From positions 124,001 to 188,000 of the forward strand of contig JADNRV010000090.1 of assembly GCA_015499995.1 (NCBI GenBank): DNA of 64,000 nt. The letters run 5' to 3'. Positions 7,166 to 23,546 of the stretch are shown here, piece after piece. The translations under genes and the position numbers were made by a program. Under the pieces are notes generated by a model. That model had not been told where the DNA came from. It saw nothing but the letters and a program-made list of their open reading frames with translations, and made no database searches. The DNA is from Flammula alnicola (lineage: Eukaryota; Basidiomycota; Agaricomycetes; Agaricales; Strophariaceae). Every line of letters starts with the position of its first letter. Position 1 is the stretch's first letter.

Positions 7166-8430
7166 TTAGTTCTCTCCCAAGAACTTTTGAACGACGCTGA
7201 GGTACCTGGGGTGGAATTAGGCTATTGTGGGAGAGGGGAGACATACAATACGCACTTTTCCTGGTCTTCGTACATCGTCATATGGCTACCTTTCTCAAGC
7301 TGAACCCACTCGATATTGGGGACGCTTGTCATCCAGGGCTTCAGCGCCTTTTCCTGGGCCTGATCCTTCAGAGGGTTCCCTGACACCATCAAAATTGGGT
7401 AGGTAATCTTAGGCAAAATATCGATGATGTTCCAATCTCTAAGACTGCCAGAAGTCTTGAACTCGGACGGACCGATCCTATGGAGTCATAAGAACGTGGA
7501 AGAAAATAACAGCACAACGAGCCACTCACGTCGCCATCCACACAGTTGGATCAGCCGCAATCATCATGAAAGAGCCCAAGACATCTTCCGGCCACGGGTC
7601 GAGCGTACAGACGTGCTTCTTCATGAACTGCATATTGCCGTTCTGGTATTCTGGCGAGTGGGCTGTGCCTTCGTCCTCGTGCTTGCGCATCATGGAAACA
7701 AAATCGGACGGGAACTTTTCCAGAAGATCGTTAGCGCCCTGCTCGAATAGCTTCATTGAAGCGGGAGTGCTGATCAGGATCAGTTTCCTTAAACCCTTTG
7801 GCTGTCTTTCCGCTGCAAACTGGGCAGCGAGCATTCCTAGAGCGACAATTAGTCTGGCTTGATTTGAAGTCGCGCAATATCGATGCGAAACGTACCTCCC
7901 CAACAGTGGCCTACGAGCGCGAAGTTGTCACTGATACCGAGGTGATTTAAGAGGTTTTCAAGTTCATCCATGAACAACTTGGGAGTCCAGAAGTCACTCG
8001 GTGCGTCCGGAAGATGGGTCGAGTTTCCATTGCCGATTTGGTCATACAGCACGATGGGCCTCCTGAAAGATCGTTGGCATGAGCGATATCAATTAAAGAT
8101 TAAAATATTAACGGCCTACATCTGGCTCGTCCATAGGTGTTTATGATTCCTGCATGAGATTTTAGCATATTAAATACGACACTCGATAATTAGACACGTA
8201 CAGCATGCTAACAAACGTAGGTTGCGCTGAATTGAGTACATTTTCGATACCTGTGGTGTTCTTTGGGGTGCTTACTACTGGTGGTTGAGGCCAGGGCCTC
8301 CATGGATAGTAACCAAAGGAGTCTTGCCAGACTTGAGATTTCCAAGCACTTTGTACCAAGTTTTGTAGCTTTGACCATCGACGACAAAGGTGGCGGTCCC
8401 CGTCGCTTCTGGAATTGGAGAAGATGCCAT
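7166..8430 (-). CDS. Alpha/beta hydrolase, proline iminopeptidase / amino-acid amidase type
   Basis: The start at 8430 gives [20 protein letters not shown]. The oxyanion loop reads HGGPGLNHQ, followed by [18 protein letters not shown] and the nucleophile elbow GHCWGG. Here the residue at the centre of the elbow is Cys in a W-containing GxCxG context, where most family members have Ser (GHSWGG). The C-terminal part carries ILMVSGNPL (acid region) and [11 protein letters not shown], which supplies the catalytic His. The last short exon, ending VVQKFLGEN, lies after an intron and stops at 7166. About six exons keep the frame. S33-family members remove N-terminal Pro or other small residues, or hydrolyse amino-acid amides. 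It stands beside the UstYa-like genes, so a role in trimming a peptide product is possible but only inferred. The Cys nucleophile is unusual and merits attention. Confidence 0.85.
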
Positions 8431-8928: not shown

Positions 8929-9603
8929 TCACTCGACTGATATATCCGCATCCTCCCATGCATGTGTCAGAGACACGCCCTTCCATTCGTCCTGATTGTC
9001 TTCTACGAACTTGCGAATTTTTGACCAATCCCGGCATCTATGAAGCTCTCCTTGCGTTCCATTTACAGGAATCAACGTCAGGTCCGGATGACAAAGGAGG
9101 CCCTGTCTGAGGAAGTGGATACAGTGGGTATTGTGCATGTAGCTTGTATCCACATTCGAATCGAGGGTTAGCCCGAGGCGGGCAACCATGTACATGTATC
9201 GAATGGAATTTAAGCAATGGAGCTGGTGGTAAATGGCGAGTCCAAATGGCCTTCCCTTGGGTCCTATACGGGTAAGCCCAAGTTCAGGAGGAACCAGGGA
9301 GTTCCAGGCGTCGTTATCGGTCAGAGGATATGAGGTATCGTTCTTTTCGAACAATAGAGCAACCTCTCCATATTTTCCCGGCAGTTCTCTTGGGAAGTCG
9401 AACCCGACATATTCTGTGGAATTCGTTGTCATTAAAAGTATGAAAGGGGTATTTAATTGCCTACTATAGTGTGGCGATTCCAGAGCTTGAAATCTCTGGA
9501 TAGTTCTGAGCAATTTAAAAGTATAGGTGGCTTTATGACCGACAAAGGTGACAAGGAGGACGATGAAGATAGATTGGATGATGGTTAAACGTCGCGCACC
9601 CAT
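8929..9603 (-). CDS. UstYa-like (DUF3328) oxidase, motifs intact
   Basis: The protein has an N-terminal membrane anchor (IIQSIFIVLLVTFVGH), then the DUF3328 body. Both signature motifs are present: HQLHC in IYHQLHCLNSIRYMY, and the second motif HCIH in HNTHCIHFLRQGLLCHPD, followed by ELHRCRDW near the C-terminus. UstYa-family proteins are copper-dependent oxidases that cyclise or otherwise oxidise peptide side chains in ustiloxin-type RiPP pathways. The frame is open throughout, but alignment with the related gene at 16949 argues for a 51-nt GT-AG intron at about 9413-9463 whose removal gives SPHYKYVGFDFPRELPG, the family-typical junction. This is one of five UstYa-type sequences between 8.9 and 17.7 kb. 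Confidence 0.88.
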   Translation of the reverse strand: MGARRLTIIQSIFIVLLVTFVGHKATYTFKLLRTIQRFQALESPHYSRQLNTPFILLMTTNSTEYVGFDFPRELPGKYGEVALLFEKNDTSYPLTDNDAWNSLVPPELGLTRIGPKGRPFGLAIYHQLHCLNSIRYMYMVARLGLTLDSNVDTSYMHNTHCIHFLRQGLLCHPDLTLIPVNGTQGELHRCRDWSKIRKFVEDNQDEWKGVSLTHAWEDADISVE

Positions 9604-10338
9604 GTATCTCCTGAAAGGGATGGTTGAGGGTTGTGGTTAACTTTGCCATAAAGATCGTATCTTAACCAAGGACTTGGTGACCGTGAGGGACTTTTTACTG
9701 GATGGCGCGCCTAACGGCCCGCAGCGGGTCGCACGATCGAATGCACGGGCCAGCGTCGGAAGACGAATCTTTCGGCAAGCGCCCATCCGGGAAGGCGTTG
9801 CCCTTCCCGGCTCTACGTTTATGCACATACCCGATCTCGGAATCATTTGCTATCTTCGTCATGCTATTACATTGATACGCCAAATCATTTCTGGACCGGG
9901 GTACCCGTACAAGAATGCCAGTTCCGAGTACGACCATATTTAGGACACGTACTGCACCCTCGCGATCGTGGAGAAGACAGATGTAGAAGTCGACACGCTG
10001 CGAGCCAATAGTGCGAATATATATCCGTGTTTCCGAGGCCTGTACATAAGACATTGTTTTTTTTTTTTTTCCAAGTTGCCCCCTCATCATCGGATCTAAG
10101 GATCCTGGAATCTCCGAGTCTACCCATATCAATCAAAGAAATCAAATATTGCCCTCATCTTTTCTCATACTTCTGTACTTCTGCGATGAATCCGGTGCAA
10201 GTCTAACTATTAATAGTCTCTTTGTTGCACTGGCAAACGCAAGCTTTCCCCTTGAATAATTTTGCGTCACAACTCCTTGTTAATAACTAGGATTCTTGTC
10301 TTTGCGATCATAGTCAGTCGCGCAATTTTCATTGGACT
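9604..10338. other. Intergenic with A14 tract and one long uncertain ORF
   Basis: A run of fourteen T on the plus strand (A on minus) lies near 10056-10070. A minus-strand ORF of about 145 codons spans 9695-10132, but it has no recognisable domain or conserved motif, so I do not call it a gene. Confidence 0.35.
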
Positions 10339-10998: not shown

Positions 10999-11687
10999 AT
11001 GTCGCATCGCATACCAACGCCTTTGCTTGTATTGACCATCTCTCTGCTGTTGTTCGCAACTATCTGTGAGATAGTGTGTGCCCTATACTGGAAACACTCC
11101 GGGTTGAACACTCGTTCCAGGAATGTGGAATCTCGTGCGTACATCTTCTGGACTAAATTTTGAAATTCTATTCTGACTTCTTGCACAAAGCGTTCGACAG
11201 CAATAATCTTCCTTCAGAGCTACCGCTGAGCGATGCATATGCTGCAAAGCAGGTGGCAATGCTATGGGACAATCATAACTATGAAGCCACGGCGTCACGA
11301 CAATGGGATACGCTCTTCCCGAGAAACAAGGGCAGGATTAGTCTGGACGACAGCGGACGACAGTTTCAGGTTGCAATGTATAGTCACCTGGAGTGCGTCA
11401 ACAAAATCCGCCTGGCGCTTGTGGAAGCCAGGGATCTCTTGAAAGGCACCTCACTTACACCGACTTCGCCTCCATTCCAAGCTCGAGAGGAAATTGATGC
11501 TTGCTTTGGTCAAATTCGTCAAGCAGTCCTTTGTGCCGGAGATTTCACGACCAACCCCACTGTCCTAACATTTACGAATGACTCTTTGGAGAAATTTGAT
11601 ATCGATACGGTCGAAGTTGGTACATATCACAGATGTAGGGACTGGACAGCAGTGCGTGAAGCAACCACAAGGATGAGTATAAAATAA
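10999..11687 (+). CDS. UstYa-like (DUF3328) protein lacking the HxxHC histidines
   Basis: Exon 1 (ATG 10999) gives a membrane anchor, LLVLTISLLLFATICEIVCA. After a short intron the body reads PFDSNNLPSELPLSDAYAAK, then RQWDTLFPRNKGRISLDDSG. The position of the first catalytic motif reads MYSHLECVNK instead of HQLHC, and the second reads EEIDACFGQIRQAVLC instead of HCxHxxRQ, so the usual histidine ligands are missing. The C-terminal HRCRDW box is kept. The overall fold signature (W at the AW/QW box, HRCRDW) still places it in the family. It may be a non-catalytic partner of the intact paralogues, since UstYa proteins often work in pairs (UstYa/UstYb). The frame is intact, so I do not call it a pseudogene. 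Confidence 0.8.
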
Positions 11688-12622: not shown

Positions 12623-13330
12623 ATGATGGTATTTATCAATAATTTGCACTACTGGTAATTATCCCTGGTCGCTAAATCCATTTCCCTAGCTGCCAAATGG
12701 TCTCACGGGCGCCATCTCTCTTGGCATGGTTCTGCTCATTATCTGTTCGGCAACTCTTGATGTAGCCACATTAACGCTGCTCGTCCAGTCTGGAAAGAAG
12801 CTCATGTGTCAGTCGTCCTCCATAGTCATCTAATATCTTGCTAATACAGAGAACACCTAGACGCCCAAATACCAAGCACAAGTTCGAAGCTGTTTAATCC
12901 TAATCGTCCCATACAAAATATCGCGACGGAATTCTACAACGATCGCTACAACATCACGGCGCATTCGGCCTGGGCGTCGTTAATCCCAGAAAACAGAGGC
13001 ATAATGCCGGTCGGCCAAGAGGGAAAGAAAATGCAGGTTGCCCTTTATCAGCAACTTGAGTGCATTAACAATCTGCGCATATCGATGCTCCATCTGTATA
13101 ACGTTGCAACTGCAGAGCCGCATATTCCTCCCGACTTCGCGAAGTCGGAGATGTGTTTCGGGGTGTTGCGCCAGCTTCTTCTGTGCGCTGCGGACCCAAC
13201 TATGGAGCATACGACGCCCGAATATCATGCCGACGGCACAGTGGATGAGAAGAGTACTATACATGGCCTCGAAGACACTCACAGGTGCAGAGATTGGCGA
13301 CAGGTCTGGGACTTGGCAAACGATAAGTGA
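12623..13330 (+). CDS. UstYa-like (DUF3328) protein lacking the HxxHC histidines, second copy
   Basis: The start is uncertain: ATG 12623 with a 6-nt first exon spliced to LPNGLTGAISLGMVLLIICS, or ATG 12726 inside the same membrane helix. After an intron ending at about 12849 the body reads QNIATEFYNDRYNITAHSAW, then LIPENRGIMPVGQEGKKMQ. As in the neighbouring copy, the first motif is degenerate (LYQQLECINN) and the second is KSEMCFGVLRQLLLC, without the histidines. The C-terminus keeps HRCRDWRQVWDLAND. The sequence GHxxxW/AW box and the two conserved Cys positions agree with the family. With the 10999 gene it forms a divergent, motif-less subfamily, in the same orientation and about 1 kb apart, so a tandem duplication is likely. 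Confidence 0.78.
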
Positions 13331-13836: not shown

Positions 13837-14905
13837 TTAGACGGTTGCCGACGCGGTTTCTATGGCTGAAGTTTATATATCACATGGGGCAAAGCCTCAA
13901 TGGACAATAGACGGAAAATAGTTTATATATCAGTGTGGCGCAGGGAATGAGTTAACGTGTCTACTTACATGCACTTGCATCGTGGTCCGGGGTTGGCGTC
14001 CTAGAATCTAGGATTCAATTGAGTACAGGTGAGCTAATCTGCAGATACAACCCATAATTACCTATCTTTCCTGTCGCAACTGCGGCATGCGCGACTGGCA
14101 ATTGGTCAGATTGGCGTCGAATCCGTAGATTCAATATATGCACGTACAAGCCCGTGTAGAGACATCTTCATGCTCCACTGTCTTATCTCCTGCTCTCCAG
14201 TTAGGAATTATTGAATGGTAGAGAGGATTTTATCAATGATTACCTAGCTTTCCTGTTGCAATATCGGCATTCACGACTGAAATTTGGTCAGACTGGCATC
14301 GAGGTAGAGACTCAATACAGCAACGTACAAGCCCGTGCCGAAACAACTTCGGGCTCCACCTTTTTATCTCCTGCTCTCGGGATAAATATTATCGAATTAT
14401 GGAAAGGATTCCATTGAGAATCACCTAGCTTTCCTGTTGCAATCTTTGCGTTGACGACTACATTTTGGTCAACCCATGTAGACACTCGAATTTGACCTTT
14501 CTACTTACAGGCACGTTCAGAAACCGCATTGGCTGGCTTAGCCTCTGATGGTTTTTGGGTAAGCACGCGGAGATCACGAAGATCTAGACCATAATCACCA
14601 ATATTTCCGGTTGGAAGCTTGACTTTTGCGACTGCGGTTGTCTCTGAGTTTTGCCCGAAAGAATGAAAAACCATATTAAAACGTACAGGCTCTTTCAATG
14701 TTGCGGTTCACTTTATTTAGTGTCAACATTCACTCGTCTGGAATAATTCATGCTGTGAACCTACCAGCCAGTTCAGCTACGGAAGAGACATTAGTTTATG
14801 ACAACATATATATTCGCCCTGAGACTTACAGACTGGGGACGCAAGCGCTATACCAATAAGCGCAAGAATGAGGGCGGCAAAGTAAACCGATCGGAAAATA
14901 GCCAT
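13837..14905 (-). CDS. Secreted repeat peptide, candidate RiPP precursor
   Basis: The ATG at 14905 gives a textbook signal peptide (MAIFRSVYFAALILALIGIA then LASPV). Proposed exons: 14905-14830, 14776-14765, 14710-14687, 14631-14509, 14457-14425, 14370-14329, 14276-14244, 14189-14148, 14094-14062, 14007-13969, 13865-13837. They sum to 486 nt (161 codons plus stop), all in phase. After the leader come four imperfect repeats, each starting at an AG acceptor followed by TCG, giving (F)AKVKLPTGNIG, (F)VNAKIATGKLG, (F)VNADIATGKLG and (F)AHAAVATGKIG. Each is followed by a variable acidic segment ending in SERA, SARA, STRA or ASA. Repeats 2-4 are 33-nt plus 39-42-nt exon pairs around a 54-nt intron. 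In repeat 1 the matching 54 nt is open and could be coding (GDYGLDLRDLRVLTQKPS). No consistent dibasic Kex2 site is seen. Neighbouring UstYa-like genes suggest an oxidised peptide product; this is inferred. Confidence 0.7.
13969..14631 (-). repeat. Tandem exon-pair repeat, four units, period about 174-182 bp
   Basis: Unit starts lie at 14631, 14457, 14276 and 14094 (minus strand), giving spacings of 174, 181 and 182 bp. Each unit has the same internal order: AG acceptor plus TCG, 33 nt encoding the TGK(L/I)G-type motif, a 54-nt GT...AG segment, then 36-42 nt up to a GTAAG or GTACG donor. The units are clearly related at the DNA level, including in their introns, so the whole exon-intron block was duplicated. 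Confidence 0.85.
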
Positions 14906-16948
14906 TGTGGTAGTCAGGATGCTCAGTTGCGTCTCGATAGTGTCATACCCGGTAGTTCTTATATCAATGCGGTGTACATTGATCTATACAAATAGAAGCC
15001 ATCGGGTTATTGGGTGCTGGTAGGAGTCAGAAATGGTTGCCATAACGGGACTCTCAGAGCTCCGAGAATATCCTCGAGACAATTTTGTTAAGTTCGGTTA
15101 TAAATATTACTTGCGCGGACGTGTATCAGAATTGTGTTTTTCCATTACTTTCGATCACTATTAATGAACAATCCTCGGCTTGGCTGGATACATACCAGAA
15201 GCCTCGGCGGCGTGATGGATCTCAATCCATGGCAAATGAAACACCATCACCCAAGCAAAGATAGCAAATTTGGGGATGACTGAGGTAGACACCTTGGGCT
15301 TGAGAAAATTTACTATCCCAGAACGTGCTCATGTGGGATCGCACTGCTGAAGCATATGTGGACCATCATCACGATCATGATCGTCAAAAGACGTGCCATT
15401 CACGTCGAGGACTTGAAATATGTTCAATGTCAGAAGAGAAAGGCTAGTTGGAAGCCATAACCGTGTCTGGCGTTGGGCGCTGTTCGAGTTTTTCCTTGTG
15501 GTCGATTCGACTTTTCACCTCGCTCTGCGTACATGTACCACACGGAGTCTGATGGAAGGACTTACGTGTAACCCCGGAGCTCGCACTTGATTATGCCCAT
15601 CACTTGATAGGACATTACGGATTGAATAGAGTATAGAGCGGTATTCATGACCGCATTTCCCGATTATAATTGAGAATTCACTGAGCGCCTGTCCGATTGC
15701 TGACAAGATGCGAAAATGCATCTGGGAAAATCCAATTCCTCAAGATGCCATTGACACTGGCACAGCGTGATAAATTGTTCACTGGGAAGAAAGTTCATAT
15801 ATGACACACAACCTTTGAATGAAATTGCTCGAACTGTCGTCAATGGCGGACGTGAGCCATCTATCGAACCTGTACGCTCCAACTGATGTCTTGTGCTCCA
15901 TATTCAGAGTACAATAGCACCCGTTCAAAAATAGGCGGCAGATTTGGGATAGAAGGACAGGGAGCCCGAGTGTGAGAAGCTTAAGGTTGCATCAGTATGA
16001 TAAGCCAGCGTCCGCATACACAGCCAATTTCCCGATGATGACCGCACGGATCTGCGGGAACTTGAATCTGCATCACCTAGGCTCCTTGAGCTCTGAAAGC
16101 GCTCTTCTTCCAACAGTCATGCGGTCGGTTGATAAATCTACTTTGAGTTCCGGGTAGAATCAATCTTCCACGTGTGAGGGTTATTTAGAAGGAAAGAAAG
16201 GCACCATTAAGGACATCCTAAATCCCCACCTGAACTACGCGTAGATTGAAAATTTCCCAAAATCATTGGCTGACAGTGATAGTCTGACTTCGAAGTTTGA
16301 CTCAGACTCCGAAGTATGGGAATGATGCCATGGTTTTCTCTACGGATGCTGCGCATCCGGTCTCTCGCGCTGCTCGGGAAGATTCCGAGATATCATGGTG
16401 ATGGAGGGATGGAAGAAGGTAGGCCTCTGAAGACAATAAATTTCCTCCCCACCGAAATGTAGTCGATGTGGATTGAAGAGCGCCCATCGCGATATTATTA
16501 TGTTACCACGGTGTGGGAATTTGGAATATTCTATTTATAACCTCTAGAGATACTCGGCCAAGCCATGGTGCTTGCGCGCTTGGAGAGGAAGAGCAGAAAT
16601 GGAAGCCATGGGCGTATGCCTATGAGCGCAAGTAGTCGGATTTTTTTAAATTCCCTTCTTCTCTTCAGAATCTATGTTGGGGAGACGTGTGGGAATTGAC
16701 AGAGTATGATAGATGCAGGACTTCGGAGAGAACGGTTACCCAGTTATAAATCGGTGGTACCAAGGTACCGTACCGACAAGTCCGGGACATTTTGGATCAG
16801 GAAATTAGAAGGGGCAACAGTCAGAAGTTCATCAATGAAGCCTCCCATGCACCACATCGCTTGTATTTTTGGTCTCTTAGTTTTCCCATCTATGCATACT
16901 TATAAGTAGATACTAGAGACACAAGCACCGGCTTTGATTCTTCGCATC
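14906..16948. other. Intergenic, nothing supported
   Basis: A 2-kb stretch between the repeat peptide gene and the next UstYa-like gene. No reading frame or splice pattern that I can support on either strand. Confidence 0.45.
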
Positions 16949-17654
16949 ATGCGTACTTCCATCAATCCTGGGATGTCATGTTTAGCCTTCGCTGGTTGGA
17001 CGCTTGCCCTGCTCATTGCTTCTTGCTTCAGAGGCTTTGCTACTCTTACATTATCCAATGCAGTCAAGCAATTCGAAACATTACAGTCGCCAATATACAG
17101 TATGCAGCTCATGTTCCATTCACTTCTTCCCGCTTATAATAATTCGCCCGAACCCTGCAGGTTGGAAAGCGCCCGACTTTCCACAAGAGTTACCAGGACT
17201 TGACGGACCCGAAACTGCCATGTTCTTCACGAGAAATGACACCACCCAATATCCGCTAGACGATAACGACGCTTGGAACACCATAATTCCTCCCAAGTTA
17301 GGCGTCTTTCGCATTGGTCCCAAAGGCAGACGATACGGATTAAGCCTTTACCACCAACTTCACTGTCTGAACTCCATCCGGTACGACTACATGGTTGCCC
17401 GACTAGGGCTTTTAGAAGATGTTCCCAACGAACTATCACATCATGATACACATTGCATGCATTTTATTAGGCAAGGTATCATGTGTCACGCAGATACGAC
17501 TCTCATTCCACTTGAGGAAGAAAGCGGGACAGAGACGTCGGGAGAGTGGCATAGATGTCGAGGGGATTGGACAAATATACGGACATTTATAGAGGACCTG
17601 CAGGCGAAGTGGAAAGGTGTACCGCTCACACATGCATTTGAGGATGCGGACTGA
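16949..17654 (+). CDS. UstYa-like (DUF3328) oxidase, motifs intact
   Basis: Exon 1 from ATG 16949 encodes an N-terminal anchor (LAFAGWTLALLIASCFRGFA) and ends SPIY at a GTATGC donor. A short intron ends in CAG, after which the protein continues WKAPDFPQELPG. The two family motifs are complete: YHQLHCLNSIRYDYMVAR and HDTHCMHFIRQGIMC. The C-terminal box here is HRCRGDWTNI, with one extra Gly compared with HRCRDW. It is close in sequence to the intact copy at 8929-9603 (shared DNDAWN, RIGPKGR, EWKG/KWKGV, LTHA.EDAD), so the two are recent paralogues flanking the divergent copies and the repeat peptide gene. Expected activity is copper-dependent oxidation of a peptide substrate in the secretory pathway. 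Confidence 0.88.
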
Positions 17655-22532: not shown

Positions 22533-23546
22533 TTATTCGTCGAGAGCGGGCAATACGGACCATTTCTACACATTAACCATCAGTGATATTCCTCTCAGTC
22601 AGCTGCACGAAATAAACCCACCTGGTTCGGGTTCTGATAACTGCAATCCCACATTTGGATCTATATACAAAACACGGGATCAGTCTCCATCCTCCATGAC
22701 ATCCCAAACGACAACTCGGACTTACCCTCGTATCATCCTGCACCACACCATCCGTCAAGTCCATGCACTTTCCTGGCAGGTGCATCCAGCTGATATGGTC
22801 CTCGGGCACGATGAGCTGTACGTGATCCCAGTGGTAGAATTGCTGGTTCCGCGCGCCGTCGACACACGTCCAAACTTGGAGCTTGGCACCGTTGGAGGTG
22901 TTGCCGTCCGTGACATCGAGACATTTGTTGGTGCCTACCAACTTGAGGGTGCTGCCGTCGAAGAACCACGTTTGAAGGCGGTTGAGCCCAGAGGAGAAGT
23001 TACATTCCTGGAAGCAGATAATGAGTTGAGGATTGGGGGGGAGGGGAATATCTGGGGAGAGGAAGAACGTACGTCGATAGTGACGGGTGCTCCGTCGTAG
23101 TTTTTTGCGCTGATGCATTGCATAGAGTTTGCGGATGGGTAAATGTGGTAATTCCCAGCCTTGGGAACGGTAGCCGGGCATGCTGGGTTACTATCGCGGC
23201 CGGGCTGGGGAACATTCGGGGCGTGGTATAGGGTGTGGTTGGAGAACTGCCCAAAGAAACGACGATGTTAGCGAGGACGAGATAATGGAAGGAGAGAATC
23301 ACGTACGTCATACCAGCAGAACTGATCGTCTCCTTTCGTAGGGTCATTATCCCAGTACCAGCACTGGTAGTATTGACTGAAGGTGGAGGCTTCCACTAGC
23401 CTATAAGAGCCGCCCCCGGATGGTGTCAATTCAGAAGGGCAGGCGAGGTACACTGGGATCCATGGTGCTCGGGGTGAGAGAGGTGAGGAGAGCACTAGAG
23501 GGAGGAAGAACAAGAGCGGAAAAGCGAGTACGTTAATAAAAGTCAT
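22533..23546 (-). CDS. Secreted ricin B-type (beta-trefoil) lectin-like protein
   Basis: The ATG at 23546 begins a signal peptide (MTFINVLAFPLLFFLPLVLS). A unique N-terminal part with Cys/Trp-rich YYQCWYWDND is followed by a carbohydrate-binding beta-trefoil: YHIYPSANSMQCISAKNYDG, LVGTNKCLDVTDGNTSNGAK with LQVWTC, and the next subdomain PGKCMDLTDGVVQDDTR, IQMWDC, then QNPNQ-KW, the QxW signature of ricin-B repeats. CLDVTDG and CMDLTDG are the classic sugar-contact motifs. Six exons, all GT-AG, with the last one short and ending at 22533 (KWSVLPALDE). Such proteins bind galactose- or GalNAc-type glycans outside the cell and act in defence or in targeting enzymes. No enzymatic domain is attached. 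Confidence 0.87.

Follow-up and report, generated by a model that had tools for sequence, protein, structure and literature searches.

What product is encoded by a tandem repeat gene that has a signal-peptide-like start and lies among four genes of the UstYa (DUF3328) family? This question is raised by a locus of Flammula alnicola in a stretch of 64,000 nucleotides of contig C852, the whole of which is referred to here as the window. Dibasic sites on either side of the repeats are described as the defining feature of KEPs and dikaritin precursors (PMC9769878), with DUF3328 genes bearing a double HxxHC motif as a further one for dikaritins (PMC12048977). Mining for fungal repeat precursors has been based on annotated proteins and dibasic sites, in a study whose main text uses neither the word intron nor the word exon (PMC7329392). 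The initial annotation of the locus proposed a RiPP precursor whose repeats are each divided by a GT..AG segment.

Structure of the repeat peptide gene

From the sequence, the repeat peptide gene is read on the minus strand, from 14905 to 13961 or 13837. Its tandem array (TRF period 181, score 438) is one of two in the 64-kb window, the other scoring 61. The product consists of a signal-peptide-like start, one degenerate unit (unit 0) and four units, A to D, of 23-25 residues. The exons and introns discussed below are as follows.

14830..14905, minus: exon 1, encoding MAIFRSVYFAALILALIGIALASPV, a start that by eye resembles a signal peptide
14765..14776, minus: exon 2 (12 nt), encoding SELA, with which degenerate unit 0 begins; shared with the deposited protein
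14711..14764, minus: intron (54 nt) within former exon 2, from the exon chain of the corrected model
14687..14710, minus: exon 3 (24 nt), encoding VNRNIERA, which completes unit 0; likewise shared with the deposited protein
14599..14631, minus: unit A, first exon (33 nt)
14545..14598, minus: unit A intron, 54 nt with an open frame in haplotype 1, 55 nt in haplotype 2; kept as coding sequence in the deposited model
14509..14544, minus: unit A, second exon (36 nt)
14425..14457, minus: unit B, first exon (33 nt)
14371..14424, minus: unit B intron, 54 nt, open, retained in the deposited model
14329..14370, minus: unit B, second exon (42 nt)
14244..14276, minus: unit C, first exon (33 nt)
14148..14189, minus: unit C, second exon (42 nt), preceded by a 54-nt intron with two in-frame stops
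14062..14094, minus: unit D, first exon (33 nt)
13961..14007, minus: unit D, second exon, to the stop at 13961 or to a donor at 13969; the deposited protein ends in ACK
13837..13865, minus: optional last exon (SIETASATV, stop), the end of the initial annotation; absent from the deposited protein

The repeat architecture proposed at the outset, four imperfect units each made of a 33-nt exon, a 54-nt GT..AG segment and an exon of 36-42 nt, is confirmed, on the minus strand, with second exons of 36, 42, 42 and 39 nt in units A-D. A further, degenerate unit (SELA / VNRNIERA) brings the array to five. The signal peptide also claimed for the start is seen by eye in exon 1 and was not picked up by a crude hydrophobicity scan at its threshold. 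The original chain of eleven exons totalling 486 nt does add up to a multiple of three; it is not open, however, and was ruled out by two in-frame TGA codons in its 90-nt exon 2 (14776-14687), which translates as SELAGRFTA-stop-IIPDE-stop-MLTLNKVNRNIERA. A 10-exon model that left out this exon (396 nt, 131 aa) was in turn replaced when the deposited protein described below revealed exons of 12 and 24 nt in its place.

In the corrected form, 11 exons give 411 nt and 136 aa, with translation ending at the stop at 13961 (..DASACK). With 12 exons, a 103-nt intron is followed by SIETASATV and the end at 13837 (432 nt, 143 aa). The unit products of A-D are FAKVKLPTGNIEAKPANAVSERA, FVNAKIATGKLGDKKVEPEVVSARA, FVNADIATGKLGDKTVEHEDVSTRA and FAHAAVATGKIDSRTPTPDHDASA. 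Introns preceding and separating the units measure 51-55 nt. Every intron of the corrected model is in phase 1, and thus exons or whole units could be gained, lost or skipped with the frame intact. About 0.4 kb upstream of the gene there is a short ORF with a signal-peptide-like start, MARLLTIMIVMMVHICFSSAIPHEHVLG followed by a stop (15313-15399, minus).

Deposited protein, haplotypes and splicing of the 54-nt segments

Most of the UstYa loci found are present twice in the assembly (74.4 Mb, 861 contigs), as in a two-haplotype assembly. The allele of the repeat gene region lies at C177:48038-49106 and is 98% identical. A protein search with the spliced product, the query being the earlier 10-exon, 131-aa model, gave, out of 48 candidates, a single match with E up to 1: BDZ97DRAFT_1923140, a hypothetical protein of Flammula alnicola of 172 aa. 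No relative of the precursor outside this species was present among those 48 at the same limit. The gene, first suggested to encode a possibly undescribed precursor, had therefore already been deposited, with a different splice model. BDZ97DRAFT_1923140 maps letter for letter on the window DNA as nine exons, the same exons as in the corrected model except that the 54-nt introns of units A and B are retained.

The second haplotype bears on this difference. It carries one additional base in the unit-A 54-nt segment, which breaks the deposited protein and leaves the fully spliced model open, and so favours full splicing; the base could possibly be an assembly error. Both one-base indels between the haplotypes fall in introns, and the 11-/12-exon model is open in both. 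In units A to D, none of the donors of the 54-nt introns (GTGATT, GTGATT, GTAATC and GTAATT) has G at +5, unlike those of the remaining introns (GTAAGT, GTAGGT and GTACGT). The first introns of all five units (0 and A-D) are 54 nt long in haplotype 1; those of A and B are open and those of 0, C and D contain stops. As judged from sequence, partial retention of the 54-nt introns is possible. Retention, if real, would give unit A a Tyr and unit B a Trp.

Constraint on the coding sequence

Between units B and C, identity is 28/33 and 33/42 in the exons and 36/54 and 38/53 in the introns. In the coding part there are 8 synonymous changes per 19.0 sites and 6 non-synonymous changes per 56.0 sites (Fisher p 0.005). 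For the 33-nt exons, pS is higher than pN in the pairs A-B, A-D, B-C and B-D, is about equal to it in A-C (0.37 and 0.36) and is the lower of the two in C-D (pS 0.18, pN 0.22). These alignments indicate clear protein-level constraint in the B-C comparison only. Between the haplotypes there are 6 differences across 432 coding bases: 3 are synonymous, and 3 change an amino acid (D to V, T to I, A to T). A further 16 fall in the 637 bases of intron. Taken alone, this comparison gives no sign of constraint.

Putative processing sites

The claim that a regular KR or KK site is lacking holds for dibasic sites, of which the 136-aa product has one, a KK in unit B. It missed a recurrent single Arg: R-A-F stands at the start of all four units (NIER/AF, VSER/AF, VSAR/AF, VSTR/AF). 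Four of the seven Arg residues of the product are those at the junctions of units A-D, the others lying one each in the signal peptide, unit 0 and unit D. The spliced product of the 136-aa model has no Tyr beyond the signal peptide. For Agaricomycete repeat proteins expressed in another host, the peptides obtained are reported to suggest Kex2-type cleavage after a single Arg (PMC9769878). In the genome, S8 protease and P-domain matches adjoin each other on C334, C301 and C293, and kexin-type proteases are thus likely to be present. No paralogue of the gene was detected in the genome, either by DNA search (the two alleles apart) or by protein search (E up to 10).

UstYa genes and other neighbours

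The UstYa-like neighbours reported earlier amount to four PF11807 genes above cut-off, which flank the repeat gene within 8.9-17.7 kb and are all present on both haplotypes. The nearest ends about 0.5 kb from the repeat gene. For W2, W3 and W4 the coordinates do not include the first exon(s).

8929..9636, minus: W1, UstYa family (PF11807), both HxxHC motifs present
11157..11687, plus: W2, UstYa family (PF11807), the four motif His replaced
12845..13330, plus: W3, UstYa family (PF11807), the four motif His replaced
16986..17654, plus: W4, UstYa family (PF11807), both HxxHC motifs present
7255..8073, minus: alpha/beta-hydrolase-like gene; Pfam match on a frame with stops read through, PF00561 just over cut-off, PF12697 below it

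W1 and W4 are 55% identical, and both carry HQLHC together with HNTHC or HDTHC. W2 and W3 are about 35% identical; in both, the four aligned His are replaced and both Cys are kept, and W3 of haplotype 2 has RH instead of RQ. In CctR, two coppers are reported to be bound by the HxxHC motif, and replacement of its His and Cys by Ala inactivates the enzyme (PMC12435403). W2 shows 96% identity over 78% to BDZ97DRAFT_1414990 of Flammula alnicola. A profile search with W2 and W3 gave six proteins among 320 candidates, two of which correspond to the window itself or to its deposited counterpart. The His-less pattern (YQQLDC, ENCFGIIRQ) is common to P0005, Gymnopilus junonius CPB84DRAFT_158242, and P0006 (metagenome); the two weakest matches, P0007 and P0008 (Trametes sanguinea), carry both HxxHC motifs. 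Retention of the His-less type in two genera or more argues against mere decay. In the UstYa comparison, five of nine loci (L001, L010, L012, L013, L023) were left out, their frames not being UstYa. No solved structure matched the UstYa profile at E up to 1.

In a six-frame Pfam scan of 1-24 kb, where split exons may be missed, no tyrosinase, methyltransferase, peptidase or transporter was matched. The alpha/beta-hydrolase-like gene is possibly a member of the cluster. The same scan gave a sub-threshold DUF1918 match. A ricin-type beta-trefoil lectin domain (PF14200, PF00652) lies near the cluster at 22723-23010 (minus).

Other candidate precursors in the genome

Seven regions around other UstYa loci were searched for repeats. 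Five contained some repeat, of which the one on C778 alone is precursor-like; the others are short matches of two or three copies, along with an array of 70-nt tandem repeats on C556 (764954-765629, about 3.5 kb from a UstYa match). The C778 gene (114195-114774, minus) is a KR-type repeat gene at a distance of about 1.2 kb from a UstYa gene; ADAVEKPHAWGGYSEKRDFAK is an example of its units. Each unit has an exon of its own, the introns (65, 52, 55 and 52 nt) are in phase 0, and KR occurs in three of four units. The first exon of the gene contains a 26-nt tandem duplication, and the frame leading to the repeats begins at the second ATG. A copy of the locus on C732 is 99.9% identical over 5.7 kb. 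A protein search gave one relative among 3417 candidates, a metagenome protein (E 3.5e-10).

At two further places a signal-peptide-like exon is followed by a short exon. On C767 (77840-78043, plus), amid four UstYa matches, the latter ends in ..ARRGSDNLALCF and a stop; on C556 (747432-747641, plus), about 3 kb from a UstYa match, it ends in ..TRRQDADWLKSSGN and a stop. Each is possibly a single-core precursor.

Comparison with known systems

The repeat gene shares with the dikaritin precursors (ustiloxin, phomopsin, asperipin-2a, victorin) a signal peptide, repeated units and DUF3328/UstYa neighbours (PMC9769878, PMC12048977, PMC9233826). In contrast to them, it has no dibasic Kex2 sites between units, and every repeat is split by introns. 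Both HxxHC motifs are present in only two of its four UstYa proteins, W2 and W3 having none of the four His, and the 1-24 kb region gave no match to the tyrosinase, methyltransferase, peptidase or transporter genes of the early dikaritin definition, which were later reported to be dispensable. Unlike most described dikaritin cores, the spliced product is devoid of Tyr after the signal peptide. KEPs too are secreted repeat proteins, with which the signal peptide (by eye) and tandem units of the repeat gene agree; their defining dibasic sites are missing, a single Arg standing at all four unit starts instead. The repeat gene is therefore not filed as a KEP. The epichloecyclin precursor GigA also has imperfect repeats behind a secretion leader; by description it is probably Kex2-processed and gives Tyr-Ile cross-links (PMC9233826), whereas the product described here has no Tyr after the signal peptide. 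The C778 gene resembles the focal gene in its introns between repeats and its nearby UstYa gene. It differs in having one exon per repeat, phase-0 introns, KR sites, and Tyr and Trp in the unit. Searches of open-licence PMC papers brought up no account of intron-split repeats in such precursors, or of this cluster.

A candidate dikaritin-like precursor

The sequence evidence points, with somewhat better than even probability, to the repeat gene supplying the precursor for a UstYa-linked peptide pathway and working like a dikaritin precursor. In support of this are the open, phase-consistent model in both haplotypes, the deposited protein, the B-C constraint, the four PF11807 genes and R-A-F at four of four units, together with the single-Arg cleavage suggested for expressed Agaricomycete repeat proteins, the kexin-type candidates and the C778 repeat gene near a UstYa gene. 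Against it stand the one dibasic site, the missing Tyr, the lack of a precursor relative or paralogue in the searches made, the weak 54-nt donors, the three protein changes among six haplotype coding differences, a constraint clear in B-C only, two of four UstYa proteins without the catalytic His, and a Pfam scan of 1-24 kb that yielded, apart from a weak alpha/beta hydrolase, no tyrosinase, methyltransferase or peptidase match. The RiPP proposal is partly supported, by the signal-peptide-like start, the repeats, the UstYa genes of both haplotypes and the B-C constraint, and the precursor role itself is what they suggest.

On this dikaritin-like reading, the protein would enter the secretory pathway and be cut after the single Arg preceding Ala-Phe (VS[EAT]R/AF three times, NIER/AF once) by kexin or a like enzyme acting at single Arg. 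The predicted peptides would start with AF after the Arg, for example AFVNAKIATGKLG. Once freed, the whole unit or the half that is better conserved (AF..., T-G, K or N, L or I) would then be oxidised or cross-linked by the copper-type enzymes W1 and W4, and the His-less W2 and W3 would be partners, not catalysts. The four invariant Phe and the core Leu/Ile may supply a Phe-Leu pair for the UstYa enzymes, as in victorin (PMC9233826).

An alternative is that the product is a small repeat protein, either surface or effector-like, which is secreted uncut, and that the UstYa genes act on something else. Having a single KK as its sole dibasic site and no Tyr after the signal peptide, the product is unlike most dikaritin cores, and UstYa enzymes are reported to act on non-ribosomal peptides too, for example cyclochlorotine (PMC12435403). 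R-A-F at every unit start, the position of the gene between four UstYa genes, the nearest ending so close to it, and a second repeat gene near the C778 UstYa gene count against such a protein, which we regard as unlikely though deserving of some weight. A precursor of 172 aa with the A and B segments retained, whose cores would contain Tyr (GDYGLDLRDLR) or Trp (GDSQWNPFHN), agrees with the deposited gene model, the weak donors, the open A and B segments and the uniform 54-nt length of the five first introns in haplotype 1. The additional base of haplotype 2 breaks this model, and the corresponding segments of units 0, C and D contain stops; it appears distinctly improbable.

That the array is a decayed or non-coding tandem repeat, its GT..AG pattern merely gene-like, is very improbable. 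Chains of GT..AG segments are easily built, as the original chain with its two stops illustrates, and unit 0 is degenerate. Such a repeat is hard to reconcile with the synonymous excess between B and C, the frame kept in both haplotypes and an independent deposited gene call for the same exons.

Implications

Beyond the single locus, the dikaritin-like reading would extend to a basidiomycete RiPP family, a proposal that is at present speculative and itself unlikely. Its members would have an exon-cassette array with a core exon and a spacer exon per unit, phase-1 introns and single-Arg cuts before Ala-Phe. Peptide sets would be generated in frame via duplication, skipping or 54-nt retention, and in maturation a copper UstYa pair would be joined by a conserved pair of His-less UstYa pseudoenzymes. 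Intron-split repeats that are resolved unevenly in the deposited model, together with single-Arg units, would let this gene escape dibasic and protein-based mining twice. The second UstYa locus, on C778, with one exon per repeat, suggests a recurring pattern. We infer that such genes may partly explain why just 103 of 1680 basidiomycete KEPs are reported to adjoin DUF3328 genes (PMC7329392). The occurrence of the His-less UstYa type in two genera makes the idea of a copper enzyme acting with an inactive partner testable.
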